Below, piece after piece: positions 1,319-24,618 of a stretch of DNA of 39,064 nucleotides. The notes under the pieces were generated by a model, which made no database searches, was not told the origin of the DNA, and saw nothing but the letters and a program-made list of their open reading frames with translations. How positions within the stretch are numbered: position 1 is the stretch's first letter; every line of letters begins with the position of its first letter. The stretch is from positions 1 to 39,064 of the forward strand of contig JAHTBO010000001.1 of NCBI GenBank assembly GCA_019166125.1, written 5' to 3'. This DNA is from Alcaligenaceae bacterium CGII-47 (lineage in GTDB: Bacteria; Pseudomonadota; Gammaproteobacteria; Burkholderiales; Burkholderiaceae_B). Made by a program: the position numbers and the translations under genes.

Positions 1319-1347
1319 TTGTATTCAAGGTTCCTTTCTCTCATAAT
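1319..1347 (+). promoter_or_regulatory. Candidate promoter of the malonate/liv gene cluster
   Basis: A -35-like TTGTAT (1319-1324, only three matches to consensus) stands 17 bases before CATAAT (1342-1347, five of six matches to TATAAT). The -10 hexamer lies inside the 19-bp palindrome at 1341-1359, so a protein on the palindrome would block RNA polymerase. The predicted transcript starts near 1354, giving a leader of roughly 30 bases. Confidence 0.5.
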
Positions 1348-1359
1348 TATTAATTATGA
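1341..1359. promoter_or_regulatory. 19-bp perfect palindrome, candidate GntR operator
   Basis: TCATAATTATTAATTATGA has 9-bp arms around a central T. It sits 23 bases before the start codon of the GntR/FCD regulator and overlaps its putative -10 box. GntR regulators of the FadR/FCD subfamily commonly bind short palindromes in their own promoters, so autoregulation and substrate-induced relief are likely. The link to this regulator is inferred from position. Confidence 0.6.
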
Positions 1360-1382: not shown

Positions 1383-2111
1383 ATGGTGACTGCCCGGATT
1401 GTTCAGAAAATTCTCTATCAAGAGGTTGCCGATCGTTTGCGCACCATGATTCAGGCACGCGAGCTCCGAGCGGGTGAGTGGATCGATGAGGTTCAGTTAA
1501 CTGGTGTGCTGGGCATCTCACGCACGCCACTGCGTGAGGCGCTTAAGGTGCTCGTAGCCGAAGGGCTTTTACGCCTCGAGCCGCGTCGCGGTTGCTTTGT
1601 TAATGAGCTGTCCACCCGTGATCTGGACGATATCTTTCCGCTGATGGCAATGCTTGAAGGGCGTTGTGCCTACGAGGCAGCGAGTAAGGTCACCGATCAG
1701 GATTTGCTGCGACTCGAGCCCATGCATCAGCAGTTGCAGATCCATGCGATCGCTGGGGATATCGATCAATATTACGCTAGCAATGCGCAGATTCATGAGG
1801 CGATCCAGGCCTTGGCAGATAATCGCTGGCTTTCTGACCTAATTGATAATCTGCGCCAGGTACTCAGCCTGTCGCGCCATAAGAGCCTCGCCTATCCCGG
1901 TCGCGTGAATGAATCTTGTGCCGAACATTTGGCAATTTTTGCCGCGCTTAAAGCGCGCGACCCAGAGGGTGCTGAAGCCATCACGCGTAAGCATTTGATG
2001 CGCCAGCTCGAAGCACTGCATATTCTGGACGAACAGGAATTGGCGACAGAACCTTCAGGCCCGGTGTCTGCCATGTCGGCATTGGTCAAACAGGGGGACA
2101 TTCAAACATGA
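1383..2111 (+). CDS. GntR family (FadR/FCD) transcriptional regulator
   Basis: This is a 242-residue DNA-binding regulator. The N-terminal winged helix-turn-helix (about residues 12-75) is clear from the recognition stretch LGISRTPLREAL and the wing EPRRGCFV. The C-terminal half is an all-helical FCD ligand-binding domain with the usual metal-site pattern: Asn/His in NAQIHEAI, His in EHLAIF and His in RKHLMRQ. FCD domains typically bind carboxylic acids or acyl-CoAs through the metal. The gene overlaps the malonyl-CoA decarboxylase gene by 4 bases (ATGA), the same order as matR-matA in rhizobial malonate operons, so malonate or malonyl-CoA is the likely effector. It probably represses its own promoter through the palindrome at 1341-1359. 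AAAGAG stands just before the ATG as a weak ribosome site. Confidence 0.9.
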   Translation: MVTARIVQKILYQEVADRLRTMIQARELRAGEWIDEVQLTGVLGISRTPLREALKVLVAEGLLRLEPRRGCFVNELSTRDLDDIFPLMAMLEGRCAYEAASKVTDQDLLRLEPMHQQLQIHAIAGDIDQYYASNAQIHEAIQALADNRWLSDLIDNLRQVLSLSRHKSLAYPGRVNESCAEHLAIFAALKARDPEGAEAITRKHLMRQLEALHILDEQELATEPSGPVSAMSALVKQGDIQT

Positions 2112-3400
2112 GTACGCGCGATGTGGCAGGGAGTTCGGTAGCCCTAAAGGTCGTAGACGCTTCCCCGCCTGATAAAAATACAGGTGCCGGGTTGCTGGCG
2201 CGGCTAAGCCGCTGGCTAGAGCGCGATCATCTGCCCAGTGACGCTGATGTGCGCGCACTCTATAGCGCGACATTGACAGATGTGTCGGCAAATAAGCAGG
2301 CCACGCAATGGGGCGCACGTTATCTGGAGGCTGACGGGCCCGAGCGTTGTTCACTGTTGGCGGGTTTGGTGCGGGCTGGGGTTGGGATCGAGCCGCGTGG
2401 TGATCAGGGACTGCGGCTGTTTCGTCGCTTATATGCTCAGTCCGACAGCTTGCAACTGCTCGTTGAGCTGCGCGCCGACATGCTGCGTTGGCGTAATCAG
2501 GTGGCGGGCCTGTCCACGCTAGAGCATGAGCTCGAGACGCTACTATCGAGCTGGTTTGATGTGGGCATGCTGGAGTTGCGTCCGATTAACTGGGATTCTC
2601 CGGCGTCTCTGCTGGAAAAACTCATCCAGTACGAGGCGGTCCATGAGATCCGCTCGTGGGATGATTTGCGCCATCGGGTGGCAGCGAATCGGCGCTGCTA
2701 TGCGTTTTTTCATCCTCGTATGAATAATGTGCCGCTGATTTTTGTCGAGGTCGCCTTTTCCCAACAGATGGCTGATAACGTCCAGGTTTTGCTTGACCCC
2801 GGTAAGCCTGCGGATGATCTGGACAAAAGCCGTTGGGCAATTTTTTATTCTATTTCCAATACGCAGCCTGGGCTGCGCGGAATCAGCTTTGGCAATTTTC
2901 TACTCAAACGCGTTCTCGACGAGCTGCTGCGTGAGCTACCCCGGTTGAAATTCTTCGCCACGCTCTCGCCGATCCCCAAGTTCACCGACTGGCTAAGCAA
3001 GCAGGATGGGGCGGCGATTCAGGCTTTATTGGTTGATAAGGGTGAGCGCCAGGCGGCGCAGGACGACGTGACGGCAGGTGCCAAATGGGTCGAGCGCCTG
3101 CGCGCAGCAGCGGTCGGCCCCCATGAAGAGGCTGTGCGTCGGAGTGGATTACGCCTGGCGGCTCATTATCTGAAAGCCACAAAAAGCAATCAGATTCTGG
3201 ACCCAGTGGCACGCTTTCACCTAGGCAATGGCGCCCGGATCGAGCGTTTGAACTGGGCGGCGGACACCTCAGCCAAGGGCCTGATGCAGTCGTGCGGCAT
3301 GATGGTGAACTATGTGTATGAGCTGGATCAGCTCGACGACAATCTGATTCAATTGGCCGCTGGTAAGCCCAAAACTTCAAGGGCCATCCAATGGCTATGA
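2108..3400 (+). CDS. matA: Malonyl-CoA decarboxylase
   Basis: The enzyme decarboxylates malonyl-CoA to acetyl-CoA in the cytoplasm. The 430-residue length fits bacterial members of the MLYCD family. The N-terminal helical domain is followed by the acetyltransferase-like catalytic domain with family blocks FFHPRMNNVPLIFVEVA, YSISNTQPGLRGISFGNF, LSPIPKF (around residue 285) and FHLGNGA (around residue 370). The last two carry the Ser and His regarded as the catalytic pair in the human enzyme. The C terminus also has the conserved NWAADTSAKGLMQSCGMMVNY block. It overlaps the regulator gene upstream and the crotonase gene downstream, so all are probably translationally coupled. With the malonyl-CoA synthetase two genes on, it completes malonate to acetyl-CoA. 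The symbol follows the rhizobial mat operon. Confidence 0.93.
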   Translation: MSTRDVAGSSVALKVVDASPPDKNTGAGLLARLSRWLERDHLPSDADVRALYSATLTDVSANKQATQWGARYLEADGPERCSLLAGLVRAGVGIEPRGDQGLRLFRRLYAQSDSLQLLVELRADMLRWRNQVAGLSTLEHELETLLSSWFDVGMLELRPINWDSPASLLEKLIQYEAVHEIRSWDDLRHRVAANRRCYAFFHPRMNNVPLIFVEVAFSQQMADNVQVLLDPGKPADDLDKSRWAIFYSISNTQPGLRGISFGNFLLKRVLDELLRELPRLKFFATLSPIPKFTDWLSKQDGAAIQALLVDKGERQAAQDDVTAGAKWVERLRAAAVGPHEEAVRRSGLRLAAHYLKATKSNQILDPVARFHLGNGARIERLNWAADTSAKGLMQSCGMMVNYVYELDQLDDNLIQLAAGKPKTSRAIQWL

Positions 3401-4197
3401 GTGCCCAACCGTCGGCGGTAGGTCGCGTGCGGGTCGCGCACGAAGGGGCCATCGCAACCGTGACGCTCGATCATCCGGGCCGATTGAATGCCCTGACCGT
3501 GCAGATGTGGCGTGAGCTCGCCCAGGTATTTAGCATGCTGTCGGCTGATACGTCGTTGCGCTGTGTGGTGTTGCGTGGCGCTGGCGGGAATTTTGCCGCG
3601 GGTGCCGATATTCGCGAGTTTCCGAATGAGCGCGCCGATCTGGACGGTGTGATGCGTTATCACCTACAGGTGATTGCGCCTGCGTTAGAGGCGGTTGGGC
3701 GCTGTCAACACCCAGTCGTAGCCTGGATAGAGGGGGTTTGTGTGGGAGGGGGCTTGGAAATTGCCAGCCAGTGCGACCTGCGTATTGCGGGGCAGTCTGC
3801 ACGGTTTGGGGTGCCGATTAATCGCCTGGGCTTTCCCATGGCGCCAGACGAGGTGCGTGGCTTGCTCGCACTGGTAGGACGCGCCAGGACGCTCGAGATC
3901 TTGCTTGAGGGCCGGGTTTTTGATGCGGCTGAAGCACTGGCCAAAGGCTTGCTCACGCGTGTCATCCCGGATGATGAGCTTGGCGCCGAGGTTGCGCGCA
4001 CCGCACGGCGCCTGATCCGCAACGCACCCCTGGCGGCACGCCTCAATAAACGCATTGTCACCCGTTTGTGCGCGGCCCCGCATGAGCTGACTCAGGCTGA
4101 GTTGCACTCGTTTTTCAGTTACGCCGAGAGCCGCGATCATCGCCACGGCGTCCAGGCATTTTTGGCTGGCGAAGAGCCCGTCTTTACAGGAGATTGA
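3391..4197 (+). CDS. Enoyl-CoA hydratase/isomerase (crotonase) family protein
   Basis: This 268-residue protein has the crotonase fold that stabilises CoA-thioester enolates. The CoA and oxyanion segments are visible: GNFAAGADI (residues 67-74) and GVCVGGGLEIASQCDLRIA (115-133). Glu123 matches the first catalytic Glu of enoyl-CoA hydratase. The second (the PEI motif in hydratases) is replaced: the sequence reads FGVPINRLG, with Ile143-Asn144. A classical hydratase is therefore unlikely. Crotonase relatives with altered residues include decarboxylases, hydrolases and isomerases. Its place between malonyl-CoA decarboxylase and synthetase suggests work on malonyl-CoA or a substituted malonyl-CoA. 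The first ATG is preferred because AAGGG lies seven bases upstream; a second in-frame ATG at 3397 overlaps the decarboxylase stop. Confidence 0.85.
   Translation: MAMSAQPSAVGRVRVAHEGAIATVTLDHPGRLNALTVQMWRELAQVFSMLSADTSLRCVVLRGAGGNFAAGADIREFPNERADLDGVMRYHLQVIAPALEAVGRCQHPVVAWIEGVCVGGGLEIASQCDLRIAGQSARFGVPINRLGFPMAPDEVRGLLALVGRARTLEILLEGRVFDAAEALAKGLLTRVIPDDELGAEVARTARRLIRNAPLAARLNKRIVTRLCAAPHELTQAELHSFFSYAESRDHRHGVQAFLAGEEPVFTGD
4188..4192 (+). promoter_or_regulatory. Shine-Dalgarno AGGAG that sets the malonyl-CoA synthetase start
   Basis: AGGAG at 4188-4192 leaves seven bases before the TTG at 4200 but only one before the upstream in-frame TTG at 4194, so 4200 is the better start. No ATG or GTG lies near the expected N terminus. 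Confidence 0.65.
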
Positions 4198-4199
4198 TT

Positions 4200-5738
4200 T
4201 TGGAACGCAACGCTAACTTGTACGCCATACTGGCTGCTGGTTTCGCCACGGACCGTGATGCAGTAGCGATCGAGACGCCGACGCGAACTTACAGCTGGGC
4301 GGATATCGAGCAGACGAGTGCCCGGATCGCCGGGCTGCTGCAATCGCTTGGCGTAGCCCCTGGCTCGCGGGTCGCAGTACAAGTCCATAAATCTCCTGAG
4401 GCGCTGATGCTGTACCTGGCGACTTTGCGTGCCGGTTTGGTCTATCTGCCCTTGAATACCGCCTATCACGCGGCCGAAGTCGAGTATTTTCTGACTGATG
4501 CTGAACCGGCCGTGGTGGTCTGTGATCCCGCCAATCAGAAATGGATTGCAGATCTGGCACAACAGGCCGGCACGGCACATGTCTATACCCTGGATGCGGA
4601 CGGGTCGGGCAGCCTGATGGAAGAGGCAGCGAGTCAGGAGGCGGTGTTCCAGACAGTGCACAGCCAGCCCGATGATTTGGCGGCCATTCTGTATACCTCT
4701 GGCACGACAGGACGCAGCAAGGGCGCGATGCTCTCCCATGACAACCTCGCCTCTAATGCCCTGACGCTCAAGCGCTACTGGGGCTGGCGTGCCGATGATG
4801 TCCTGCTGCACATGCTGCCAATTTTTCATGTACATGGCTTGTTCGTCGCCTCGCACGGAGCGTTGCTGGCAGGGGCGAAAATGATCTGGCTGCCTAGGCT
4901 TGATATTGATCAGGCCTTGCATTATTTGCCGCGATGTACCTTGATGATGGGGGTGCCGACCTATTATGTACGCCTGCTCGCTGATCCCCGGTTTACGCCG
5001 GAGGTATGCCGCAATATGCGATTGTTTATCTCCGGATCAGCACCTCTGCTGGCAGAAACTTTCCATCAGTTCCAGCAACGCAGCGGCAATACGATCCTCG
5101 AGCGCTATGGCATGAGTGAGACCGGGATGATCACCTCCAACCCTTATGAGCCTGCGCTGGGCGAGCGCTTGGCCGGAACAGTCGGGCCTGCGTTGCCCGG
5201 AGAGACGGTGCGCGTGGTCGACGACGAGGATCGTCCCGTTGACTTGGGCCAGACCGGGCATGTGCAGGTGCGTGGCCCCAATGTCTTTGCCGGTTACTGG
5301 CGCATGCCAGAGAAAACACGTCAGGAGTTCACTGAGGACGGCTGGTTCCGTACTGGCGACTTGGGGACATTAGGTGGGCCAGGCATTCCAGATCATTACC
5401 TGAGTATTGTGGGGCGTAGCAAGGATCTGATCATCTCGGGTGGCTATAACGTCTATCCGAAAGAAATTGAACTCGTCCTCGATGTTCAGCCCGGAGTCGA
5501 GGAGTCAGCGGTCATTGGGGTGCCACACGCTGATTTTGGCGAGATGGTGGTGGCGATTATCGTGCCCAAGGTGGGGCAGGTCTTGGATATCGAAGGGATT
5601 CAGGCCTCGCTTAAAACTTGTCTGGCCAATTTCAAAATGCCCAAGCAGATCCATGTTATCGATGCGCTGCCGCGCAATACCATGGGGAAAGTGCAAAAAA
5701 ACGTGCTGCGGCAGCAGTATAAGAATTTGCAGCCATAA
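4200..5738 (+). CDS. matB: Malonyl-CoA synthetase (acyl-adenylate-forming)
   Basis: The enzyme activates malonate with ATP and CoA to malonyl-CoA through a malonyl-adenylate. It has the full adenylate-forming layout: phosphate loop LYTSGTTGRSKG (about residues 164-175), FHVHGL, ERYGMSETGM, GWFRTGDLG, the hinge GRSKDLIISGGYN, and the C-terminal lysine region PRNTMGKVQK (about residue 495). FHVHGL and the C-terminal segments closely resemble MatB and the human ACSF3-type enzymes. The length of about 512 residues is normal. The start is taken as TTG at 4200, placing MERNANLYA at the N terminus; TTG at 4194 would overlap the previous stop codon. It is the fourth gene of the overlapping set and supplies the substrate for the decarboxylase. 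Confidence 0.92.
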   Translation: MERNANLYAILAAGFATDRDAVAIETPTRTYSWADIEQTSARIAGLLQSLGVAPGSRVAVQVHKSPEALMLYLATLRAGLVYLPLNTAYHAAEVEYFLTDAEPAVVVCDPANQKWIADLAQQAGTAHVYTLDADGSGSLMEEAASQEAVFQTVHSQPDDLAAILYTSGTTGRSKGAMLSHDNLASNALTLKRYWGWRADDVLLHMLPIFHVHGLFVASHGALLAGAKMIWLPRLDIDQALHYLPRCTLMMGVPTYYVRLLADPRFTPEVCRNMRLFISGSAPLLAETFHQFQQRSGNTILERYGMSETGMITSNPYEPALGERLAGTVGPALPGETVRVVDDEDRPVDLGQTGHVQVRGPNVFAGYWRMPEKTRQEFTEDGWFRTGDLGTLGGPGIPDHYLSIVGRSKDLIISGGYNVYPKEIELVLDVQPGVEESAVIGVPHADFGEMVVAIIVPKVGQVLDIEGIQASLKTCLANFKMPKQIHVIDALPRNTMGKVQKNVLRQQYKNLQP

Positions 5739-5747
5739 GGAGGTGAT
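5736..5747 (+). promoter_or_regulatory. Orphan extended Shine-Dalgarno sequence overlapping the matB stop
   Basis: TAAGGAGGTGAT is a 12-base match to the complement of the 16S rRNA 3' end, far better than any working ribosome site in this window. It begins with the matB stop codon. No ATG, GTG or TTG follows at a useful distance: the next bases are TACTGCTTAG. It may hold terminating ribosomes, or be the remnant of a lost start codon. Confidence 0.5.
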
Positions 5748-5759
5748 TACTGCTTAGTC

Positions 5760-5801
5760 CTTATTAAAACAGTCAATCTGAAAATCATTTCATTTAATAA
5801 G
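5760..5801. promoter_or_regulatory. Nested inverted repeats before the binding-protein gene
   Basis: CTTATTAAA (5760-5768) is repeated in reverse complement as TTTAATAAG (5793-5801). Inside lies a second inverted repeat, TGAAA (5779-5783) and TTTCA (5788-5792). The outer arms share the core TTATTAA with the palindrome at 1341-1359, so this may be a second site for the same regulator and mark an internal promoter for the transporter genes. Confidence 0.45.
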
Positions 5802-5841
5802 AGCAAACATGAAGTTGCCAATCATACTCTGGAGACAATAT

Positions 5842-7020
5842 ATGAAAAAAGTACTGAATACTTTCTTAAAGGCCAGTGCCTTATGCGTGTCGATCGGAAT
5901 GATCGGTGCTGTAACGCCCGCATCGGCCAAGGATGTGGTCAAAATCGCGTTTGTTGGGCCACTGACCGGCGGCTCCTCATCGATTGGTTTGGGCGGCCGT
6001 AATTCGGCTGACCTGGCAATCCGGTTGCGCAATGCTGATCCAAAATCTAAATATACTTACGAATTGGTCGTTCAGGACGACGAGTGCCGTCCGAATATCG
6101 GGGTGCAGGTTGCCACCAAGGTCGCCGCCGACAAGAGCATCGTGGCTGGCGTGACGCATTATTGCTCGGCAGTCGCCATCGCGACAACGGGCGTATACCA
6201 CCGTTTTGGCATGCCCGCGATTGTGTGGGGGGCCGTATTGCCAGAAGTTACCTACGGCAATGACTACAAAGAAGTTTTCCGTGTGAACGGTACGATGATC
6301 AACCAGAACGAGGTTGCCGTGAAATTCATGGCAGATCTGGGTTACAAGAACTGGGGCGTTATTCATGACACGACTGATTATGGCAAGGGACATAACGAGT
6401 ATTTCACCAAGTACCTTAAAGAGCACAATGGAGTCATTCTGTCGTCATTTGGTGTCACTGCAGAGCAGCAGGATTTCACGACGGAGCTGACTAAACTACG
6501 GGAGACAAAGCCGCAGGTCTTGTTTTTCGGTGGTCTGACGCCGCTTGGAGTACGGATTCGCACCCAAATGGACAAGCTCGGGATCAAATCAGTCTTTCAA
6601 GGAACCTCTGGTATTAAGTCAGACGCTTACATCGAGGGGGTAGGTCCCGCGCTGGCCGAGGGCTCACTGTCTTTCCTGGAGGGCGCGCCGCTTGAAAAAC
6701 TGCCGGGTGGTCAGTTTTTCTCTGAACAATATGCGCAACAAAAATACGGCGAGAAGCCAGAGGCCTATGGTCCATTTTCCTTTACGGCTGCGAATCTGAT
6801 CATGGATGCGGTCGAGCAGGTAGGGCCAGATCGTAAAAAGGTTCTCGCAGCACTGAGTGAGACAAAAAACGTGGACACCATTATTGGCAAGGTGACCTTT
6901 GATGATCATGGTCAGAATATCGTCCCGCTTGTCACCAAGTATGTGGTGGATGACGGTAAGTGGGTGGTATGGGAAGACAGCCATTACGGCTCAGGCTCAA
7001 AGAAGCTGCCCGGCCTGTAA
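5842..7020 (+). CDS. Periplasmic substrate-binding protein, Liv-type ABC importer
   Basis: This is the periplasmic receptor of the importer encoded by the next four genes. A signal peptide is clear: MKK, a hydrophobic stretch, then TPASA before KDVVKIAFVGPLTGG. The mature part is a type I binding protein of the LivJ/LivK (peripla_BP_6) kind, with the usual YELVVQDDEC and YGKGHNEYF segments. Two cysteines (DDECRPN and HYCSAV) fit the conserved disulphide near the N terminus of LivJ-like proteins. The start at 5842 is chosen because GGAGA lies 7-11 bases upstream and the signal peptide begins there; the ATG at 5809 would add 11 residues before the signal. Liv-type receptors bind branched amino acids but also urea, short amides and aromatic acids, so the annotation stops at the family. 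The neighbours favour an amide or ureido compound. Confidence 0.88.
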   Translation: MKKVLNTFLKASALCVSIGMIGAVTPASAKDVVKIAFVGPLTGGSSSIGLGGRNSADLAIRLRNADPKSKYTYELVVQDDECRPNIGVQVATKVAADKSIVAGVTHYCSAVAIATTGVYHRFGMPAIVWGAVLPEVTYGNDYKEVFRVNGTMINQNEVAVKFMADLGYKNWGVIHDTTDYGKGHNEYFTKYLKEHNGVILSSFGVTAEQQDFTTELTKLRETKPQVLFFGGLTPLGVRIRTQMDKLGIKSVFQGTSGIKSDAYIEGVGPALAEGSLSFLEGAPLEKLPGGQFFSEQYAQQKYGEKPEAYGPFSFTAANLIMDAVEQVGPDRKKVLAALSETKNVDTIIGKVTFDDHGQNIVPLVTKYVVDDGKWVVWEDSHYGSGSKKLPGL

Positions 7021-7030
7021 TCAGGGCGTC

Positions 7031-7060
7031 GCGGACTGCATTAGGTGCAATGCAGTCCGC
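7031..7060 (+). other. Perfect 12-bp stem-loop between binding-protein and permease genes
   Basis: GCGGACTGCATT (7031-7042) pairs fully with AATGCAGTCCGC (7049-7060) around AGGTGC. No T-run follows, so it is not a standard terminator. Such hairpins after binding-protein genes commonly protect the upstream mRNA from 3' decay and lower expression of the permeases, giving an excess of receptor. Confidence 0.75.
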
Positions 7061-7093
7061 TGCCCAACTTTAGCCTGATCGGTGGGGATGACA

Positions 7094-8023
7094 ATGAGTT
7101 TAATTGGACAGTATGTTTTTAATGGGCTGATGCTCGGTATGATCTACGCGATGGTCGCCGTAGGTTTTACCTTGTTCTTTGGGGTGTTGGATGTAATCAA
7201 TTTTTCGCACGGAGATGTTTTGGTTGTCGGCGCATTTGCAGGGCTTGCCGCATCGGTTGGCGTACTGATGCTGGGCATCGACTCGACATGGATACAACTA
7301 CTTGCTGTTGTCGTGTGTGCTTTATGTGTGACCGCCCTGCTTGGGGCAGCCGTGGCTAAATACCTGATCCTTCCCCTTCGTCATGCCGATCCCCTCAATA
7401 CCTTGCTTGCAACCTTAATGCTGGGGACCGCATTGCGCGAGGCAGTACGGTTGTTTTACCCAGATGGTTCAAACCCCAAACGCTTTCCGACATTATTGCC
7501 GACATCGTCAATCGAGCTAGGCAGCTTTTCGCTTCGTGCCGACAGCATGATTCTGCTTGCATGTGGTTTCGTGTCGATTGTCGGCGTGCATCTTCTGATT
7601 ACCCGCACGCGCCTGGGCAGGGCGATCCGTGCCGTAGCGCAGGATAGTGAGACCGCTCGCCTGATGGGTATCAACTTTGAGGCAGTCGTGCTTCTGACCT
7701 TTGCGCTGGGCTCAGCAATGGCTGCGCTGGCAGGTGTGATGAACGGCTTGTATTACAACGAGATCAATTTCAACGTTGGTTTACTGCTGGGTGTGATCGG
7801 TTTTGCCGCTGCCATTCTGGGCGGTTTGGGCAGTATGTACGGGGCAATCATTGGGGGCTTTTTATTCGCGGGACTGCAGGTACTCGGTAGTGTTGCCTTG
7901 CCAGCGCTGATACCCGATATTCCGAGCGCCTATAAGGACGTCTTTGCTTTTGCAGTGGTCATTGCCTTGATGGCTTGGAAGCCAACAGGCTTGATTGCGG
8001 AAAAATCGAGCGAGCGAGTGTGA
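7094..8023 (+). CDS. Liv-type ABC importer permease (LivH family)
   Basis: This inner-membrane permease of about 309 residues has around eight helices and is half of the translocation channel. The family opening GLMLGMIYAMVAVGFTLFFGVLDVINFSHGD is close to LivH, and the cytoplasmic coupling segment RAIRAVAQDSETARLMGIN is well conserved. GTG and ATG codons precede the chosen start, but GGTGGGG (7081-7087) is best spaced for the ATG at 7094 (six bases). It lies 73 bases after the binding-protein gene, beyond the hairpin. The LivM-type gene starts 2 bases after its stop, so the two are almost certainly coupled. Confidence 0.9.
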   Translation: MSLIGQYVFNGLMLGMIYAMVAVGFTLFFGVLDVINFSHGDVLVVGAFAGLAASVGVLMLGIDSTWIQLLAVVVCALCVTALLGAAVAKYLILPLRHADPLNTLLATLMLGTALREAVRLFYPDGSNPKRFPTLLPTSSIELGSFSLRADSMILLACGFVSIVGVHLLITRTRLGRAIRAVAQDSETARLMGINFEAVVLLTFALGSAMAALAGVMNGLYYNEINFNVGLLLGVIGFAAAILGGLGSMYGAIIGGFLFAGLQVLGSVALPALIPDIPSAYKDVFAFAVVIALMAWKPTGLIAEKSSERV

Positions 8024-8025
8024 GC

Positions 8026-9195
8026 ATGACGAATCAACCAACTCTCAAACACAATTCAGCGGCAGGACTGCTGGCAATCGTTACCTTGTTATCGACCGCA
8101 TATATGTGGGCATTTCTGCATACCCAGAGTCAACTGAGTGTAGTGGCATTGCTTCTCGTGGCGGTGGCTGCATTCATATTGGGTCGCAGGTTTGGCTTGA
8201 TCGAGCGCGTCGAGCAGGCAGCTGCCCTGCGCCCTGGCCTGGCTCGGTTGTGGACCATTGGCGGAATCATCATTCTGATTGCAGCGTTGCATGATTCACA
8301 TTTTGCGCTTCTGATGATCTGCACGGTGTTGTTGTTTACGACTGCTTGCCTCGGTTTGACCATGCAGTTCGGTTTTACAGGTATTGCCAACTTTGCCGGT
8401 GCCGCCTTTTTTGGCATTGGAAGCTATACGACCGCCGTGATGGCCTCGCACACCAGTATTCCGCATGTGTTGATCATTCTTATTTCTGGCCTGGTTGCGG
8501 CGCTGATCGGGTCCTTGTTGATCCTGCCTGTATTACGCACACGCAGTCACTATACGGCGCTGGTGACGATCGCCTTCGGCATCTTGTTCAAGACGTTCCT
8601 TGAAGTGAATGATGTGCTGGGCGGGCCGCAGGGCTTGCACGTCCCGGGGATGAGCCTGTTTGGATATGAGTTCAATCAGGGATTTACCTTATTGGGCTCT
8701 GATGTTTCGTTCTATGTCAGCTATACCTTGCTCAGTCTTGTGATCTGCGCGACCACCTATTTGGTTATCGATCTTATCAAGCGCTCGTGGGTTGGTCTGA
8801 GCATGGATGTTGTGCGTACCGACGAGACGGCCGCAGCGACCTTTGGTCTGCATATCGCGCATTGGAAGGTGGTTGCATTTGTTCTGGGTAATTTCTTTGC
8901 AGGTATTGCCGGAAGTATCTATGGGATGACGACCGAGTTCGTTGCTCCCAATAATTTCACGTTTGCCGATTCATTATTGATGGTGTCGATCGTGATTCTT
9001 GGTGGCCTGGGGAACTCTATCGGTTTGATTCCTGCCGCAATCATCGTATTGGTTCTGCCAGAGAAGCTGCAATTCATCCAAGAGTACCGATTCTTTCTGT
9101 ACGCCGTGCTCGTGATTATCATTCTATTATTCAGGCCCGATGGCTTATTGCCGCGCAAGACACGTCTGTTCTTTAATCGAGGGGTATCGAAATGA
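8026..9195 (+). CDS. Liv-type ABC importer permease (LivM family)
   Basis: This is the second channel subunit, about 389 residues with roughly ten membrane helices. LivM-family features are the segment LTMQFGFTGIANFAGAAFFGIGSYTTAV, the FGI...EVNDVLGGPQGLHVPG region, and the C-terminal MVSIVILGGLGNSIG followed by LLFRPDGLLP. A longer open frame begins inside the upstream gene, but the ATG at 8026 directly after the livH stop gives the family's usual N terminus. It overlaps the first ATPase gene by 4 bases (ATGA). With the preceding permease it forms the heterodimeric membrane core of the importer. Confidence 0.9.
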   Translation: MTNQPTLKHNSAAGLLAIVTLLSTAYMWAFLHTQSQLSVVALLLVAVAAFILGRRFGLIERVEQAAALRPGLARLWTIGGIIILIAALHDSHFALLMICTVLLFTTACLGLTMQFGFTGIANFAGAAFFGIGSYTTAVMASHTSIPHVLIILISGLVAALIGSLLILPVLRTRSHYTALVTIAFGILFKTFLEVNDVLGGPQGLHVPGMSLFGYEFNQGFTLLGSDVSFYVSYTLLSLVICATTYLVIDLIKRSWVGLSMDVVRTDETAAATFGLHIAHWKVVAFVLGNFFAGIAGSIYGMTTEFVAPNNFTFADSLLMVSIVILGGLGNSIGLIPAAIIVLVLPEKLQFIQEYRFFLYAVLVIIILLFRPDGLLPRKTRLFFNRGVSK

Positions 9196-9980
9196 CTCAG
9201 CGCACTATCATGAGCGAGGTCCTCGATCTGTCTATGCGTTTTGGTGGATTGACTGCTCTCGATTCGCTCAATATGCAGATATTCGAGGGCGAGATCCTTG
9301 GCTTGCTTGGGCCCAATGGTTCTGGCAAGACAACGTTCTTCAACGTGTTGACGGGGCTGTATAAGGCAACCAGCGGCACGATTCTGTTCAAGGGCGACAA
9401 TGTCATCGGCAAGACGCCCCAAGAGGTTTATCGTCTGGGTGTGGCGCGTACCTTCCAACGCTCGCGCCTGTCGCTCTCTTTAACCGTCTTCGATAATATC
9501 GTGATCGGAGATTATGAAAATATGCAGCGGGGCCTGATATTCAACTTGTTTCGGCGCCAGGCCTTTCGGGCTGAGTACGACAGATATGTAGAGAAAGTGC
9601 AGGGCTTGCTGCAGATATTTAGCCCGATGCTTGTGGATCGTCTATTCGAGCCGGTCGGCACATTCACTATGATTGACCGTCGCAGAATCGAGGTCTGTCG
9701 TGCCTTGATTAGCCAGCCTTCGTTATTGTTGCTTGATGAGCCCTCTGCGGGGATGACACATGATGAAACGATCGAGCTGATGGACGATATTTTGCAGGTG
9801 CGTGGCAAGCTACAGAATTTGTCGGTGGTCCTGATTGAGCATGAAATGAATGTGATTGAGCGCATTACTGACCGCTGCGTGGTGCTGAACTATGGTCGGA
9901 AAATTGCCGAAGGAACGTATGTGGAAATTACTGCGGATCCGAGTGTCCAGACAGCCTATCTAGGGGAGGAAGTAGCATGA
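9192..9980 (+). CDS. Liv-type ABC importer ATPase (LivG family) with altered signature motif
   Basis: This is the first of two ATPase subunits, 262 residues. Walker A is GPNGSGKTT (residues 40-48), the Q-loop is RTFQRSRL, Walker B ends in LLLLDEPSAGM, and the switch His is in IEHEMNVIERI. The ABC signature, normally LSGGQ or LSYGQ, reads FTMID (residues 158-162), followed by the usual RRRIEVCRAL. The signature Gly is therefore Ile. Since each ATP site of the dimer uses Walker A of one subunit and the signature of the other, the site with Walker A from LivF would be degenerate. It may be a subfamily trait rather than a defect, because the rest of the gene is intact. GAGGGG stands seven bases before the ATG, which overlaps the livM stop. 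Confidence 0.88.
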   Translation: MTQRTIMSEVLDLSMRFGGLTALDSLNMQIFEGEILGLLGPNGSGKTTFFNVLTGLYKATSGTILFKGDNVIGKTPQEVYRLGVARTFQRSRLSLSLTVFDNIVIGDYENMQRGLIFNLFRRQAFRAEYDRYVEKVQGLLQIFSPMLVDRLFEPVGTFTMIDRRRIEVCRALISQPSLLLLDEPSAGMTHDETIELMDDILQVRGKLQNLSVVLIEHEMNVIERITDRCVVLNYGRKIAEGTYVEITADPSVQTAYLGEEVA

Positions 9981-10693
9981 GCACCCTCAATACCTTGAAC
10001 GTCAAGGCGCTGACGACCGGCTATGACAAAGTCAATGTGCTGCACGATGTATCGATTGATGTGGCACCCGGAAAGATCACATGTATTCTTGGTGCCAATG
10101 GCGCGGGCAAGACCACTTTGATCCGCTCTATTCTTGGCCTGACACCGCCGCGTCATGGCGAGATCCATTGGCAGGGCCGTAATCTGGCTGGCGAGAAAAC
10201 GCACAAGATCATCGCAAGCGGTATCTCTTGTATTCCTGAGGGCCGCAAGGTTTTCCCGCGCATGACCGTGGCCGAAAACCTGGTCTTGGGTGCTTTTCTT
10301 GAAAAAGATGATGCGCGTGTACAGGCGCGGCTGGAAAAGGTCTACAACATCTTTCCACGACTTAAAGAGCGTATGCTGCAGTTGGCTGGTACGATGTCTG
10401 GGGGTGAACAGGCGATGGTATCGATTGGTCGGGGCTTGATGGCCGAGCCCAAGCTGCTGGTCATCGATGAACCGTCCCTGGGCTTGTCGCCGCTCTATGT
10501 CAAAGAGAACTTCAATGTAATCCAGCAGATCAACGCCTTGGGGATTACTGTTTTGTTAGTCGAGCAAAATGCGCGCCAGACATTGGCAATTTCCCATTAT
10601 GGCTATGTCTTGTCACAAGGCCGTGTTGTGGCCGAGGGCTCGGCCGAGGCGTTATCGAACAATGATGGCGTTCGTTCTGCCTATTTCGGGTAA
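9977..10693 (+). CDS. Liv-type ABC importer ATPase (LivF family)
   Basis: This is the second ATPase subunit, 238 residues, the usual LivF length. Motifs are canonical: Walker A GANGAGKTT, Q-loop region CIPEGRKVFPRMTVAENL, signature MSGGEQ, Walker B LLVIDEPSLGLSP and switch region LLVEQNARQTL. Its intact signature pairs with the Walker A of the LivG-type partner, so at least one complete ATP site is available. A strong GGGGAGGA precedes the ATG by seven bases, and the ATG overlaps the previous gene (ATGA). It closes the transporter block; the amidase begins 9 bases after its stop. Confidence 0.92.
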   Translation: MSTLNTLNVKALTTGYDKVNVLHDVSIDVAPGKITCILGANGAGKTTLIRSILGLTPPRHGEIHWQGRNLAGEKTHKIIASGISCIPEGRKVFPRMTVAENLVLGAFLEKDDARVQARLEKVYNIFPRLKERMLQLAGTMSGGEQAMVSIGRGLMAEPKLLVIDEPSLGLSPLYVKENFNVIQQINALGITVLLVEQNARQTLAISHYGYVLSQGRVVAEGSAEALSNNDGVRSAYFG

Positions 10694-10702
10694 GGCGTAT
10701 CC

Positions 10703-11986
10703 ATGAGCGATATTTTGGCATTTTCCGTACGTGAACTGGCTCATCGCATCTCTAGCCGCGCGCTGCGTGCGCAAGATGTTGCTCAGGCTTATATCGAATG
10801 TATTCAGGCCAAAGAACCGGCTATTCATGCCTGGCAATTTTTCGATCCCGAGCTGGTTCTAAAGCAAGCGCGCGCGAGTGATCGACAGACGGCGCGTGGA
10901 CCTTTGCACGGCGTGCCGATCGGGGTTAAAGATCTGATGGATACATCGGACATGCCCAGCACGTACGGCTCGCCGATCTATAAGGACCATCGCCCGATCA
11001 ACGATGCGGCATGCGTTGCTGCCAGCCGATCAGCTGGTGCCATTATCATGGGCAAAACCGTGACAACGGAGTTCGCTGCCTTCCAGCCTGGCCCAACGCG
11101 TAATCCACGTAGTCTTGGCGGGGCGCCGCGTACGCCTGGTGGGTCCTCTAGCGGATCGGCTGCTGCGGTGGCAGCTGGAATGGTGCCGCTAGCTTTTGGT
11201 ACGCAGACGGCAGGCTCTATCGTCCGGCCTGCCGCATATTGCGGCATTGTTGGCTATAAGCCAAGCTACGGCACCTTATCTGCGGTAGGTATCAAACCTT
11301 TGTCCGTAGGTCTGGATACCGCAGGTGTATTGGCTCGTTGTGTGGATGATGCGGCGTTCTTTGTTGGTGCCTTGGCCCGCTTGCAACTGGACCCCAAGGT
11401 GGAAGGCAGGCTGCGCGTCGGGGTCTGCCACACCCCTTACTGGAGTCGGGCGAGCGCGGATTCCCGTCAAGCGCTGATGGATGCGGTGCGGCATCTCGAG
11501 CGATCGGGGGCGATCATCAGTGATCTGGATCTGCCGCCAGCGTGTATAGGCTTAAACGAGGCGCAGATCGATATTATGGGCTATGAGGCCGCTGCCGCCT
11601 TTGAGCCCGAGGCGCGTAGGTGTGCTGAGGGTTTCAGTCGTGCGTTTGCTGCCTTGATTGCGACCGGGCGCACAATTAGCGGGGAACGCTACGTTGCCGC
11701 TTTGGATGCGGCTGCCGCCGCCCGCCTGGCATTTGATTCGGTGTTTGAAACGATCGATATCGTGTTGGCCCCCAGCACTGAGGGCGAGGCGCCGCTTGGG
11801 CTCGAGAACACGGGCGACCCGGTTTTCAATCGGATGTGGTCTTTGCTGGGCAATCCTTGCGTACACGTCCCAACCGGTTATGGCGCTGCTGACATGCCGA
11901 TCGGCGTGACGCTGATCGGTCCGATGCGTGGTGACGCCCGCACCTTGTCGGCAGCCTACACCTTAGAGCGCAGCCTTAAAGATTAA
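10703..11986 (+). CDS. Amidase-signature family hydrolase
   Basis: This 427-residue cytoplasmic amidase has the Ser-cisSer-Lys triad of its family: Lys76 in GVPIGVKD, Ser148 in the GGSSSGS loop, and the nucleophile Ser172 in TAGSIVRPAA, spaced as in malonamidase E2 and GatA. The family includes malonamidase, ureidomalonase, allophanate hydrolase, GatA and aryl-acylamidases. Sequence alone does not separate these. It starts 9 bases after livF with AAGG seven bases upstream. Co-location with malonyl-CoA synthetase and decarboxylase points to a malonyl amide such as malonamate or ureidomalonate, which is inference. There is no GatB or GatC nearby, which argues against a tRNA amidotransferase role. 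Confidence 0.88.
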   Translation: MSDILAFSVRELAHRISSRALRAQDVAQAYIECIQAKEPAIHAWQFFDPELVLKQARASDRQTARGPLHGVPIGVKDLMDTSDMPSTYGSPIYKDHRPINDAACVAASRSAGAIIMGKTVTTEFAAFQPGPTRNPRSLGGAPRTPGGSSSGSAAAVAAGMVPLAFGTQTAGSIVRPAAYCGIVGYKPSYGTLSAVGIKPLSVGLDTAGVLARCVDDAAFFVGALARLQLDPKVEGRLRVGVCHTPYWSRASADSRQALMDAVRHLERSGAIISDLDLPPACIGLNEAQIDIMGYEAAAAFEPEARRCAEGFSRAFAALIATGRTISGERYVAALDAAAAARLAFDSVFETIDIVLAPSTEGEAPLGLENTGDPVFNRMWSLLGNPCVHVPTGYGAADMPIGVTLIGPMRGDARTLSAAYTLERSLKD

Positions 11987-12008
11987 CTTTGAACGATATG
12001 GTGCTTCA

Positions 12009-13307
12009 ATGAATCAGCAAGCTGAACTTGCACTGGATCTCGCGCAGCGGGCCCAGGATCATATCGATAGCGAACGTCTCCAGGACGCCATCGCTACCTT
12101 GGCCTGTTTTGGGGGCCGCAAAGACGGCGGGGTATCCCGAGAAACGCTTAGCGATGCGGATCTTGCCGCGCGGCGCTACCTGGTCGATCAGGCGCGCGCC
12201 TTGGGCTGTCTTATTGAAACGGATGAGTGCGCAAACTTGTATTTTCGACGGCCTGGGCTGACTGATCTGCCGCCGGTGCTTACCGGTAGCCACAACGATA
12301 CGCAGCCCGTGGGGGGGAAACTCGACGGGGCCTACGGCGTTGTTGGTGGGCTTGAGCTCATTGCTGCGCTGAATGATGCCGGGATCCAGACGCAGCGTAG
12401 TATCGACGTGGTCGCGTGGACCAATGAGGAAGGCTGCCGATTCGGTCCTGGCGCCATGGGGTCCAGTGCTTTTGTCGTCCCCGCCCGCTTGGCTGCTTAT
12501 CGCGAGTCAGTGGATAGCCAACAGATCACGTTTGGCAGTGCGCTTGATGCGGCACACGCCCAGTTTCCGGATTTAGGGCGTCGACCAATGAGCTCGGCAT
12601 TGTTCGCCTATATCGAGCTGCATATCGAGCAGGGACCCGTGCTTGAGCGCGCCGAGGTGCCGCTGGGCGTGGTGACAGGTATCCAAGGCGTGCGTTGGTA
12701 CCGCGTGACGTGTTCGGGCATGGCTGCGCATGCTGGGACCACGCCCATGGATGAACGGGCTGATGCAATGGTTGCAGCGCTGGGTATGGCGAACCAGCTT
12801 TATGCCTATGCGGCAAGCCAGAGCGTCAGCGCCTTGCGGCTGACGCTTGGGCAATGGCGGGTCAGCCCAGGCTCGGTCAACACGATTCCGGGTGAGGTGG
12901 TATTCACGATTGATGCCCGTTGCATTGACGATGCCGTACTCCAGCGTTTCGAGGACGAATTGCGTGATGTGACGAGGTCCTGGACATGGCGCGGTCATAT
13001 CGATTTTGAGTGCTTTTTTCAGCGCTCGCCGACGGCATTTCCGGATGCGATATTGGATCTGATCGAGCAGTCCTGCCAACGCGCTAGTCGATTGGCGCAG
13101 CGCGCCGCGCCATTACGGTTAAGTTCTGGTGCGTTTCATGATGCTATGTACCTAGCAGATCATTGTCCATCAGGGATGATTTTTGTACCGAGTGAAAAGG
13201 GAATTAGCCACAATGCGGCGGAAGCGACGGCGCCTCGTGACCTTTTTCTGGGCGTGCAGGCGCTTGCTTACACGGTCACCGCATTAGCCACAGGAGTCTC
13301 GTTATGA
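12009..13307 (+). CDS. M20 metallo-hydrolase, carbamoylase / ureidopropionase type
   Basis: This 432-residue protein belongs to the zinc hydrolases that include N-carbamoyl-L-amino-acid hydrolase (HyuC), allantoate amidohydrolase (AllC) and beta-ureidopropionase. Metal and catalytic residues are visible: His95 in GSHNDT, Asp106 in GKLDGAYGV, Glu140-Glu141 in TNEEG, His205 in ELHIEQGP and His401 in GISHNAAE. The lid domain has the usual GVRWYRV and HAGTTPMDER segments. These enzymes split ureido bonds, releasing ammonia, carbon dioxide and an amine or amino acid. No Shine-Dalgarno is evident before the ATG. The stop overlaps the next gene, another M20 enzyme. In this cluster a ureido-bonded substrate brought in by the Liv-type importer is likely. 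Confidence 0.87.
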   Translation: MNQQAELALDLAQRAQDHIDSERLQDAIATLACFGGRKDGGVSRETLSDADLAARRYLVDQARALGCLIETDECANLYFRRPGLTDLPPVLTGSHNDTQPVGGKLDGAYGVVGGLELIAALNDAGIQTQRSIDVVAWTNEEGCRFGPGAMGSSAFVVPARLAAYRESVDSQQITFGSALDAAHAQFPDLGRRPMSSALFAYIELHIEQGPVLERAEVPLGVVTGIQGVRWYRVTCSGMAAHAGTTPMDERADAMVAALGMANQLYAYAASQSVSALRLTLGQWRVSPGSVNTIPGEVVFTIDARCIDDAVLQRFEDELRDVTRSWTWRGHIDFECFFQRSPTAFPDAILDLIEQSCQRASRLAQRAAPLRLSSGAFHDAMYLADHCPSGMIFVPSEKGISHNAAEATAPRDLFLGVQALAYTVTALATGVSL

Positions 13308-14452
13308 GGCAGCAATCGTTGGATATGATTACCCGCTTGGTGGGGTTTGATACGATCTCGCACAATTCGAATCTGGATTTAATTCATTATGTCCGTGCTT
13401 ATTTAGCCGAGCATGGGGTCCAGAGTCATCTGGTTTCCAGCCCAGATGGCAAAAAAGCCAATCTGTTTGCCACCGTGGGGCCGGAAGTAGAAGGGGGTGT
13501 TGTGCTCTCTGGTCATACCGATGTCGTGCCGGTTGAGGGCCAACCTTGGGATACGAACCCGTTTCAGATCGTCCAGAAGGACGGCCGATTGTACGGCCGC
13601 GGTACCTGTGATATGAAGTCTTTTCTGGCTATCGCGCTGGCGATGGTGCCGGATATGCAGAAAAGGAATTTGCAGCGACCGATTCATTTTGCTCTCAGCT
13701 ACGATGAGGAGGTCGGTTGCTTGGGCGCACCGGCCATGATTGATCGCATGAAAGCCGACATTCCCAAGCCCAGCGCAGTCATCATTGGCGAGCCCACCAG
13801 CATGCGGCCGGTCATGGCGCACAAAGGGCTTGCAGTATTGCGCACGACGGTCATTGGTCATGAGGCCCACTCCAGCCAGATTCAGCGAGGCGTGAGTGCG
13901 GTCATGACCGCGGCAAAGCTGATTACCTACCTGGAAGGCATGACAAACGAGAACCGGGCGGCAGCAGCGTCAGATTCCCTTTTTGTGCCGCCATTTTCGA
14001 CCTTGCATGTCGGTATGGTGCGTGGTGGCACAGCGGTCAATATCATTTCCCGTGAATGTTCATTTATGTGGGATGTGCGGGTGCTGCCAGGCGAGACCCT
14101 GCAACGGTACCTGGAACCTTTTCAGGCGTACTGTGATAGTTTGCTGCCCGCTATGTTGGCCATTGCACCGAATGCGTCGATTACGACCGAAGTGATGGCG
14201 GATGCGCCGCCCCTGGCTGATCATGGCGGCGAAGCGCAGGCGCTTGCCCGACAGCTGTCGGGTCATGCGCACTGCGGCGTCGTGCCTTACGGGACGGAAG
14301 GCGGGCTGTTCCAGAATGCCGATTTTTCGGTTGTTGTATGCGGACCCGGCTCAATCGATCAGGCACATCAGCCAAACGAGTACATTGATATTTCGCAGAT
14401 TGATGCGTGCGAGGTATTCATGGATAAGCTGCTGGAACAGTTGGCTGTTTAG
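13304..14452 (+). CDS. ArgE-like M20 deacylase (acetylornithine deacetylase family)
   Basis: This is a 382-residue dizinc amidohydrolase. His71 (SGHTDVVPV), Asp103 (GRGTCDMKSF), Glu135-Glu136 (SYDEEVGCLGA) and the GEPTSM segment mark the ArgE/DapE group. HAHSSQ-like sequence EAHSSQIQRG and the C-terminal QPNEYID also fit ArgE. It is the last gene of the catabolic cluster, with AGGAG before an ATG that overlaps the carbamoylase stop. In this setting the role is more likely removal of an N-acyl group from an imported compound than arginine synthesis, since no arg genes are present. Biosynthetic ArgE remains the alternative. Confidence 0.82.
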   Translation: MRQQSLDMITRLVGFDTISHNSNLDLIHYVRAYLAEHGVQSHLVSSPDGKKANLFATVGPEVEGGVVLSGHTDVVPVEGQPWDTNPFQIVQKDGRLYGRGTCDMKSFLAIALAMVPDMQKRNLQRPIHFALSYDEEVGCLGAPAMIDRMKADIPKPSAVIIGEPTSMRPVMAHKGLAVLRTTVIGHEAHSSQIQRGVSAVMTAAKLITYLEGMTNENRAAAASDSLFVPPFSTLHVGMVRGGTAVNIISRECSFMWDVRVLPGETLQRYLEPFQAYCDSLLPAMLAIAPNASITTEVMADAPPLADHGGEAQALARQLSGHAHCGVVPYGTEGGLFQNADFSVVVCGPGSIDQAHQPNEYIDISQIDACEVFMDKLLEQLAV

Positions 14453-18960: not shown

Positions 18961-19632
18961 ATGAAGTATTCATTTGAATTCGGCCCCGTTTTTGATGCAT
19001 GGCCTTTGCTGCTGCATGGCACGTGGATGACCATCCAATTGTCCTTGCTGGCGATGCTGTTTGGCCTGATGGTTGCCGTCGCCTGTGCATGGGGCAGGGC
19101 AGAAGGTCCGTGGCCGGTACGCTGGGTGATCAAGATCTACGTTGAGGCCATTCGTAATACCCCCTTTCTGGTGCAACTATTTTTCTTTTTCTTCGCCCTG
19201 CCAGCCGCAGGCGTGCGTTGGTCGCCGTATACAGCGGCGTTGGTGGCCATGGTTGTCAACTTGGGCGCTTATGCCACAGAGATCGTGCGTGCAGGCATGG
19301 AATCCATTCCCAAGGGACAGATCGAGGCTGGCCTGGCACTGAACCTGAAGCGGATCGAGATTTTCCGCTACATCATCATAAAGCCCGCATTGAAGGCGAT
19401 TTACCCCGCACTCACCAGCCAGTTCATCTTGTTGATGTTGGCCTCTAGTGTGGTGTCCGTTATTTCTGCCGATGATCTAACCTCTGTTGCCGCAACTTTG
19501 CAGTCCGAGACCTTTCGCAGCTTTGAGATATACATTGTGATTACGGTCATTTACTTGGTTCTGACCTTAGGGTTTTCTTATATGTTCCGGCTGGTATACC
19601 AGTGGGGGCTTGACTACCCGGATCGTCGATAA
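18961..19632 (+). CDS. ABC importer permease, polar amino acid type (HisM/GlnP family)
   Basis: This is a 223-residue inner-membrane permease with about five helices. The family signatures are the N-terminal GTWMTIQLSLLAMLFG, VEAIRNTPFLVQLFF, and the EAA coupling loop EIVRAGMESIPKGQIEAGLALN. It pairs with the following permease, whose ATG overlaps its stop codon (TAATG), and they form the heterodimeric channel. No ribosome site is obvious before the ATG. The PAAT class mostly carries polar amino acids and opines, but here the following genes are for sugar-acid catabolism, so the substrate may be an amino-sugar acid or sugar acid. Confidence 0.9.
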   Translation: MKYSFEFGPVFDAWPLLLHGTWMTIQLSLLAMLFGLMVAVACAWGRAEGPWPVRWVIKIYVEAIRNTPFLVQLFFFFFALPAAGVRWSPYTAALVAMVVNLGAYATEIVRAGMESIPKGQIEAGLALNLKRIEIFRYIIIKPALKAIYPALTSQFILLMLASSVVSVISADDLTSVAATLQSETFRSFEIYIVITVIYLVLTLGFSYMFRLVYQWGLDYPDRR

Positions 19633-20285
19633 TGCGCACATTTGGCTATTCTGATTTTTTGTTCATCCTGGAGGCGGCGCAGTGGACGGTCTTGCTCTCT
19701 TTGATCGCCTTTGCGGGGGGTGGGATTGTCGGGTTGATCATTGCGCTGTCACGGACAGCCGAGAACCGCGTTGCGCGTACATTATCCATGGGTTTTATCC
19801 AGTTGTTCCGTGGCACGCCCTTGCTGCTCCAGTTATTTCTGGTGTTTTTCGGGGCACCGGTGATTGGACTGGATGTCAATCCATGGATCGCCGCAGCGGT
19901 GGCGCTGACCCTGAATGGTGGTGCATTTTTGGGAGAGATTTGGCGCGGCTGCATCGAGGCGGTACCACGAGGACAATGGGAAGCTGCTGAGGCGCTGAAC
20001 CTATCGTATCGCGACAAAATGCGCGACGTGGTCTTGCCGCAAGCTGCCAAGATCGCTGTGCCACCCACTGTCGGCTATCTGGTGCAGCTCATCAAAGGCA
20101 CGTCCCTGGCCTCTATTATTGGCTTTGTCGAATTGACGCGCGCGGGGCAGATCATCAATAACGTCACGTTTGAACCGATGATTGTCTTTTCAATTGTGGC
20201 TGTTTTGTATTTCATGCTGTGTTGGCCTTTGTCGCTATTGGCGGCCAGCATGGAGCGGCGTCTGGCTGTGTCGCAGTCGCGATAA
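19632..20285 (+). CDS. ABC importer permease, polar amino acid type (second subunit)
   Basis: This is a 217-residue permease, partner of the preceding one. It has WTVLLSLIAFAGGGIVGL near the N terminus, the family segment IQLFRGTPLLLQLFLVFFG, and the coupling loop EIWRGCIEAVPRGQWEAAEALN. The start overlaps the upstream stop, so translation is coupled. The next gene, for the binding protein, begins 38 bases downstream with its own strong ribosome site. The order permease-permease-receptor-ATPase differs from the usual receptor-first layout. Confidence 0.9.
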   Translation: MRTFGYSDFLFILEAAQWTVLLSLIAFAGGGIVGLIIALSRTAENRVARTLSMGFIQLFRGTPLLLQLFLVFFGAPVIGLDVNPWIAAAVALTLNGGAFLGEIWRGCIEAVPRGQWEAAEALNLSYRDKMRDVVLPQAAKIAVPPTVGYLVQLIKGTSLASIIGFVELTRAGQIINNVTFEPMIVFSIVAVLYFMLCWPLSLLAASMERRLAVSQSR

Positions 20286-20323
20286 CCTTGTTTTACCAAT
20301 GCTTTAATCTTTGGAGACATGAT

Positions 20324-21130: not shown

Positions 21131-21147
21131 TTGTATGGCGATAAATC

Positions 21148-21939: not shown

Positions 21940-21954
21940 ATTGGAGAGTGGACC

Positions 21955-22899: not shown

Positions 22900-22919
22900 C
22901 CTTGCCTAAAAGGAACGTG

Positions 22920-24555: not shown

Positions 24556-24618
24556 GGATGGCGGGGTCCCTATCAAGCAGGTGTGTCGCATTGTAGTCCG
24601 TGTGGCACGCGCCTCAGC

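Follow-up and report, generated by a model that had tools for sequence, protein, structure and literature searches.

The first 39,064 nucleotides of contig JAHTBO010000001.1 of Alcaligenaceae bacterium CGII-47 (GCA_019166125.1), a stretch referred to here as the window, carry at positions 1383-14452 a run of twelve genes in which a malonate (mat) gene set is coupled to a Liv-type ABC importer and three hydrolases. As a tentative best explanation, which we place somewhat short of probable, these genes form one GntR-controlled operon for the uptake of bound malonate (a malonyl amide, a ureide or an N-malonyl conjugate), with malonate being freed inside the cell. With the mat genes coupled to an importer and hydrolases, the carboxylate carrier usual for the genus missing and malonamidase E2 as the amidase's closest relative of solved structure, it is reasonable to guess at a malonyl amide or a ureide as the substrate. 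The original prediction, made from the letters of this DNA, had proposed such a route; the coupling and the lack of the usual carrier bear it out in part, whereas the importer-hydrolase module and the ArgE-type gene turned out to occur apart from mat genes as well. As a system it is best regarded as the mat operon in a new version and not as a category of its own.

In the proposed scheme, the bound malonyl compound would enter through the Liv-type importer, and the amidase, aided by one or both of the M20 hydrolases, would cut it to malonate and ammonia or an amine. MatB would convert the malonate to malonyl-CoA, which malonyl-CoA decarboxylase (MCD) would turn into acetyl-CoA and CO2. The operon would have arisen when an importer-amidase-carbamoylase module, together with an ArgE-like gene, took the position of a TRAP (DctP) gene in a Castellaniella mat operon; situated at the DctP position, both would thereby have come to lie behind the mat regulator. 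The substrate, malonate as the product, the order of the cuts and the direction of evolutionary change are the parts of this scheme that we infer.

All twelve genes lie on the plus strand and, as the original prediction had it, often overlap; according to the list of open reading frames (ORFs), neighbouring genes overlap or are no more than about 100 bases apart. Six of the junctions overlap by 4-10 bases and the LivH-LivM junction by 49 if LivM is counted from the listed TTG at 7975, although, judged by eye, the ATG at 8026 is the more likely start. The widest gap, of about 100 bases, separates MatB from the gene for the periplasmic binding protein (SBP), which starts at 5842. The genes presumably form a single transcript. 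A scan for promoters and terminators was uninformative, since its 11 and 19 sites are near the shuffle means of 9.1 and 15.0. The gene families assigned beforehand were upheld by profile scores, the two ATPases being recognized from their translations only, and the Liv importer set is complete, with an SBP, two BPD_transp_2 permeases (Pfam) and these two ATPases. The genome (G000), which is a Castellaniella, measures 3.45 Mb on 41 contigs and holds one copy of MCD.

A search for the gene set in other genomes found it repeated only in Castellaniella sp. S9 (G509), where the order MCD-crotonase-MatB-SBP-LivHMGF-amidase-carbamoylase-ArgE recurs at 61-88% identity; the S9 stretch L064 is without GntR, and the overlapping S9 locus L086 has it in front. 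Because it is repeated in this second genome, whose amidase is 61% identical to that of the window, the gene order is more than chance. No complete set beyond these two was seen in the loci compared. An amidase lies within 9 kb of MCD in two of 83 other MCD loci, namely in S9 and in L222, where a 39% relative stands on the strand opposite to MCD. The 83 loci, like the 40 described below, are our selections from MCD matches, with L175, a barbiturase region lacking MCD, removed before the count; neighbouring genes were located by tblastn, so that small or divergent ones may be missed. A plasmid search returned 10 records, the best of them at 59.8% in Cupriavidus campinensis, where the region is unannotated. 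Phage-like translations, recognized by eye, are seen near the operon in S9 (L064:1-4748).

The cluster consists of three units that are found apart elsewhere: GntR-MCD-crotonase-MatB, the seven-gene importer-amidase-carbamoylase module and the ArgE-like gene. For the first of these, the window GntR shares 67-82% identity with its counterparts next to MCD in 14 mat loci. Of 32 regions upstream of a GntR that is at least 60% identical, 31 contain a ATAATTATGAATTAT site (at most two mismatches), genome G314 being included twice and the one region without the site belonging to G506, a further Castellaniella; it is present in one of ten regions whose GntR is less than 60% identical. At no more than one mismatch the site is unique in the window's genome and in S9, occurring upstream of GntR only; as a control, the reversed pattern was matched once, in S9, across the eight genomes scanned. 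The window's own site at 1343-1357 is thus a putative GntR operator. The crotonase, which the original prediction had treated as the odd gene out, is no anomaly: a copy at least 40% identical stands on the same strand near MCD in 37 of the 83 loci (42 under a looser count); under the stricter count, it is there in 36 of the 55 loci with MatB.

Related loci have, beside the GntR-MCD-(crotonase)-MatB genes, either DctP (TRAP) or Bug (TctC). In 8/12 genomes searched, MatB adjoins a DctP with 78-100% identity to the query, these genomes being six other Castellaniella (one of which is the query's own genome) and two outgroups. This mat-type DctP has no close homologue in the window's genome (best match 24%) or in S9 (best match 28%), the comparison being one of DctP without DctQ or DctM; elsewhere its best matches are at 29% in G352 and, as two fragments, at about 40% in G506. 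None of the twelve genes encodes a carboxylate carrier of the MatC, TRAP or Bug type, MatC and Bug not having been searched genome-wide. Mat loci elsewhere in Castellaniella and in the wider family have counterparts of the window operon's first four genes and the predicted operator in common with it, but DctP or Bug at the place of its importer-hydrolase set. Split malonate gene sets also occur within the genus: G506 has MCD, with no MatB found at E<=1e-100, and G352 has MatB without MCD.

Rhizobium matRABC and Sinorhizobium matPQMAB comprise, as an excerpt of PMC5237526 describes them, the GntR regulator gene matR, a malonyl-CoA synthetase and a decarboxylase. The window operon has the regulator, the synthetase and the malonyl-CoA decarboxylase in common with them and differs in its Liv-type importer, its three hydrolases and the lack of a MatC or TRAP carrier gene. 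Among the open-licence PMC papers searched, none was found to describe an operon of this kind; comparative work on malonate regulation that PMC4494728 cites may already cover the operator or the mat gene sets.

Among solved structures the amidase is closest to malonamidase E2 (E=6e-72, against 8e-40 for GatA), to which it is 38% identical over 422 aligned positions (PDB 1ock and related entries, which we take to represent the Bradyrhizobium japonicum enzyme). The Ser-cisSer-Lys triad is kept: K76, the Ser of GGSSS and S172, invariant in 6/6 sequences, align with K62, S131 and S155 of malonamidase E2, and R175 with its Arg158, presumably a substrate-binding residue. By alignment, then, the window amidase appears to have the equivalents of all four residues, and here it stands next to mat genes; malonamate is a candidate substrate, not a conclusion. 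In the carbamoylase the H/D/E/H metal motif and the Asn/Arg motifs are invariant in 12/12 sequences, all of which read SGAFHDA where five aligned PDB chains have SGAGHDA. Relatives of the ArgE-type protein (E<=1e-110) are found in 33 of the 268 family genomes, the window's included. Only the two fused genomes have its gene adjoining the module; the ten stand-alone modules described below show no such neighbour (with less than 1 kb downstream covered in L063 and L087); the gene's neighbours, here and in 13/16 other loci, give no hint of arginine synthesis.

The SBP is 64-84% identical to 15 homologues. At the positions of Thr102, Tyr202 and Glu226 of the Escherichia coli leucine-binding protein (LBP), which we take to hold the bound amino acid, all 16 proteins, the window's included, have V, L and S. 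As these ligand residues are missing, a free amino acid is less likely as the ligand, plain leucine and isoleucine included. Transport of amino acids and of amides is known for Liv-type importers.

Amidases also stand near MCD-MatB in other lineages, so that the earlier statement that known mat operons carry no amidases fails at the genome level. Outside the order, an amidase lies within 9 kb of MCD in nine of 40 MCD loci, from four of the 30 genera in which these loci lie, counts that are raw as to phylogeny and as to the number of amidases per genome, amidases being numerous in these genomes. In genus g205 the order amidase-MCD-MatB runs in one direction in 3/3 genomes fetched (L273, L274, L318). 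Genome G971 (L310:670-10467) has DUF1989-SBP-LivHMGF-amidase-MCD-MatB in one direction, a set alike in design to the window operon and distant in its proteins. Three further amidase loci of its family were compared; in two of them MCD-MatB lies on the opposite strand at a distance of about 2 kb, and the third is without mat genes. In L272, one of two loci of its genus, the amidase is beside GntR-DctP-...-MCD-MatB, and in five loci of genus g275 it lies 3-5 kb from MCD on the opposite strand. The L273 and L272 amidases are PRK07486 members and that of L310 falls below the PRK07486 cut-off; none is close to malonamidase E2 (26-27%). A link of malonamidase E2 itself to MCD was considered and is not shown, the g275 amidases checked (L286, L292) matching it at 26-28%. 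That unrelated amidases are found again and again with MCD-MatB speaks for a connection between amide hydrolysis and malonate. It may be, though we would stop short of calling it probable, that operons joining an amidase to malonate genes, in some cases together with an importer of their own, are recurring and independently assembled catabolic units in Pseudomonadota that harvest bound malonate, the lineages in question being Castellaniella, those with PRK07486-type amidases beside MCD-MatB, and G971 with its Liv-amidase-MCD-MatB set.

Several observations weigh against a bound-malonate operon. The module SBP-LivHMGF-amidase-carbamoylase occurs in identical order and without linked mat genes in 10 loci (L083, L084, L085, L087, L088, L089 and L090, from a Gammaproteobacteria metagenome-assembled genome (MAG), two Polaromonas, Oxalicibacterium, a Ramlibacter MAG and two Cupriavidus, together with L062, L063 and L065, the last from G506). 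The separation of importer and hydrolases from mat genes, which the original prediction had named as speaking against its route, is thus in part what is found. LivG and LivF are 77-83% and 77-85% identical in S9 and these modules; L082, a 4-kb contig, and L066 hold the amidase-carbamoylase pair only. The stand-alone Burkholderiales module shares its seven genes and their order with the window operon and lacks linked mat genes and ArgE; unlike the window, it usually has a regulator and a palindrome of its own. An XRE-cupin regulator lies just downstream in 9/12 stand-alone loci (the 10 modules with L082 and L066) and was not detected in L063 (0.9 kb covered), L065 or L066. TTCAAG-N3-CTTGAA (at most one mismatch), a putative operator, precedes the SBP gene in 8/8 XRE-cupin loci whose upstream DNA is covered. 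Neither the palindrome nor the regulator was detected in the window, S9, L065 or L063. In the fused operon the module appears to be without its usual control and placed behind the mat switch, changes that suggest integration and count in favour of the proposed operon. The loss is, however, not peculiar to the fused state: because the unlinked G506 module also lacks this control, its loss is perhaps older than the fusion or independent of it.

Further points on the same side come from the history of the locus and from its enzymes. In a tree of the concatenated importer proteins, the three Castellaniella (the window, S9 and G506) form one group with local support 1.0, but the amidase and carbamoylase trees pair S9 with G506 and leave the window's position unsettled. 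In G506 the module, ArgE and MCD are at separate places; the simplest, though unproven, history is a single fusion in a Castellaniella ancestor followed by break-up in G506, and within Burkholderiales the linkage is known from one genus. MCD is present in 11/14 module carriers (5/6 within the family), against 156/268 as the family background; with no clear excess, we rejected co-occurrence with MCD as proof that the module yields malonate. Arg158 was likewise rejected as a mark of specificity, since 115 of 116 distinct relatives of at least 40% identity keep the Arg, and the closeness to malonamidase E2 is weakened as evidence by the many cousins that are closer still, the window amidase ranking 108th of 147 tblastn rows among the loci compared. 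Similarly, ArgE relatives lie near peptide-type ABC genes in 13/16 other fetched loci (families checked in L192), usual neighbours that weaken the case for a malonyl-specific deacylase.

That two functions merely share one switch, the module scavenging nitrogen from some N-carbamoyl or N-acyl compound that has nothing to do with malonate and the joining being due to chance, seems to us rather unlikely. The module's usual separation from mat genes, the frequency of MCD in the family, the six Castellaniella that have mat genes without an amidase (E<=1e-70) and the loss of the module's regulator in G506 without any mat link would all fit such an arrangement; yet the order is kept in two species despite the divergence of their amidases, the mat-type DctP is missing from both fused genomes, and amidase-mat neighbourhoods recur with unrelated amidases. 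Distinctly unlikely is a mere replacement of the carrier, in which free malonate enters through the Liv importer and the module brought the amidase and M20 enzymes along as passengers. The importer does occupy the place that DctP has in other Castellaniella, and rhizobia need no more than matRABC or matPQMAB to use malonate (excerpt of PMC5237526), but in the 10 loci without linked mat genes the importer accompanies the amidase and carbamoylase, so that its ligand is linked to these two enzymes, and neither fused genome shows an interrupted hydrolase frame. The compounds for which Liv-type importers are known also speak against free malonate.

Within the bound-malonate explanation, the substrate may be narrowed in different ways. 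N-malonyl amino acids or N-malonyl arylamines, deacylated by ArgE or the amidase, are an unlikely choice. In its favour, ArgE-type enzymes are deacylases of N-acyl amino acids, the ArgE gene adjoins the module in the fused genomes only, and the binding protein is without the Glu of LBP at 226. Natural N-malonyl compounds exist, such as the fungal N-(2-hydroxyphenyl)malonamic acid (excerpt of PMC4542470), but the peptide-type neighbourhoods of other ArgE relatives hold no malonyl hint, and both fused cases come from one genus. We think it very unlikely that the substrate is ureidomalonate, which the carbamoylase would convert to malonamate and the amidase to malonate, a urea-free version of the end of the barbiturate pathway. 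The oxidative pyrimidine (barbiturate) pathway, with barbiturase and ureidomalonase, ends in malonate and, like the window operon, uses an amidase-signature enzyme. Barbiturase (PF09663), however, went undetected in all 14 searched genomes that carry the amidase-carbamoylase pair, the window's included and some of them incomplete MAGs, in agreement with the earlier remark that none is seen here; it is present in one of the four second-tier genomes searched (described below), and a barbiturate route was set aside as the principal explanation. On paper the carbamoylase-family and malonamidase-E2-like enzymes with MatB and MCD make a complete chain, and the G971 operon starts with a DUF1989 protein, from a family presumably linked to nitrogen-rich ureides; against this, M20 carbamoylases act on amine-linked ureido groups, and we know of none active on acyl-ureides.

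Malonate is a competitor at succinate dehydrogenase and plentiful in many legumes (excerpt of PMC5237526), and fungi attach malonyl groups to arylamines (excerpt of PMC4542470). A dedicated route for bound malonate, if true, would give some malonamidase-type enzymes a physiological place, and if such units do recur, a free-acid operon becomes a bound-acid operon through a changed uptake system and changed control. The locus is in any case a clear instance of operon rewiring, with regulator and enzymes kept, the uptake system changed, and the module's regulator and palindrome missing; it also yields a short, directly testable list of substrates. The coordinates are collected in the table.

Table. 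Predicted features of the malonate-importer-hydrolase operon, in window coordinates
Feature	Position	Strand	Basis or remark
Predicted GntR (MatR-type) operator ATAATTATTAATTAT	1343..1357	+	consensus ATAATTATGAATTAT
GntR-family FCD regulator (matR-like)	1383..2111	+	PF00392 + PF07729
Malonyl-CoA decarboxylase (MCD, matA-like)	2108..3400	+	PF05292, 331 bits
Enoyl-CoA hydratase/isomerase family protein (crotonase)	3391..4197	+	PF00378
Malonyl-CoA synthetase MatB	4194..5738	+	NF005702, 822 bits vs cut-off 558
Periplasmic binding protein (SBP), Liv-type ABC importer	5842..7020	+	PF13458
LivH-type permease	7082..8023	+	PF02653 (BPD_transp_2)
LivM-type permease	8026..9195	+	PF02653 (BPD_transp_2); ORF list start TTG 7975
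LivG-type ATPase	9192..9980	+	named from translation and gene order
LivF-type ATPase	9977..10693	+	named from translation and gene order
Amidase-signature hydrolase	10703..11986	+	PF01425; nearest solved relative malonamidase E2
M20 hydantoinase/carbamoylase-family hydrolase	12009..13307	+	TIGR01879, 352 bits vs cut-off 204
M20 ArgE-type deacylase (AcOrn-deacetylase type)	13304..14452	+	TIGR01892, 417 bits vs cut-off 298

Second-tier modules are found in L067, L121, L151 and L156 (hosts G573, Thalassospira, Salinisphaera and a MAG), with an SBP 64-67% and an amidase 44-49% identical and with an ArgE/DapE-type M20 hydrolase; XRE-cupin relatives are present in L121 and L156, and the palindrome is found at two mismatches in L121 and is absent in L156.

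The first bases of the contig (3-383), about 1 kb upstream of GntR, encode the C-terminal part of a TnpB/Cas12f1-like protein (PF07282), and a serB-like ORF, recognized by eye, follows the ArgE gene. Farther downstream, the region 18961-24591, with polar amino-acid-type ABC genes, a PfkB sugar kinase, a D-2-hydroxyacid dehydrogenase and, on the opposite strand, a KDPG/KHG-aldolase-family gene, looks like a separate catabolic cluster.

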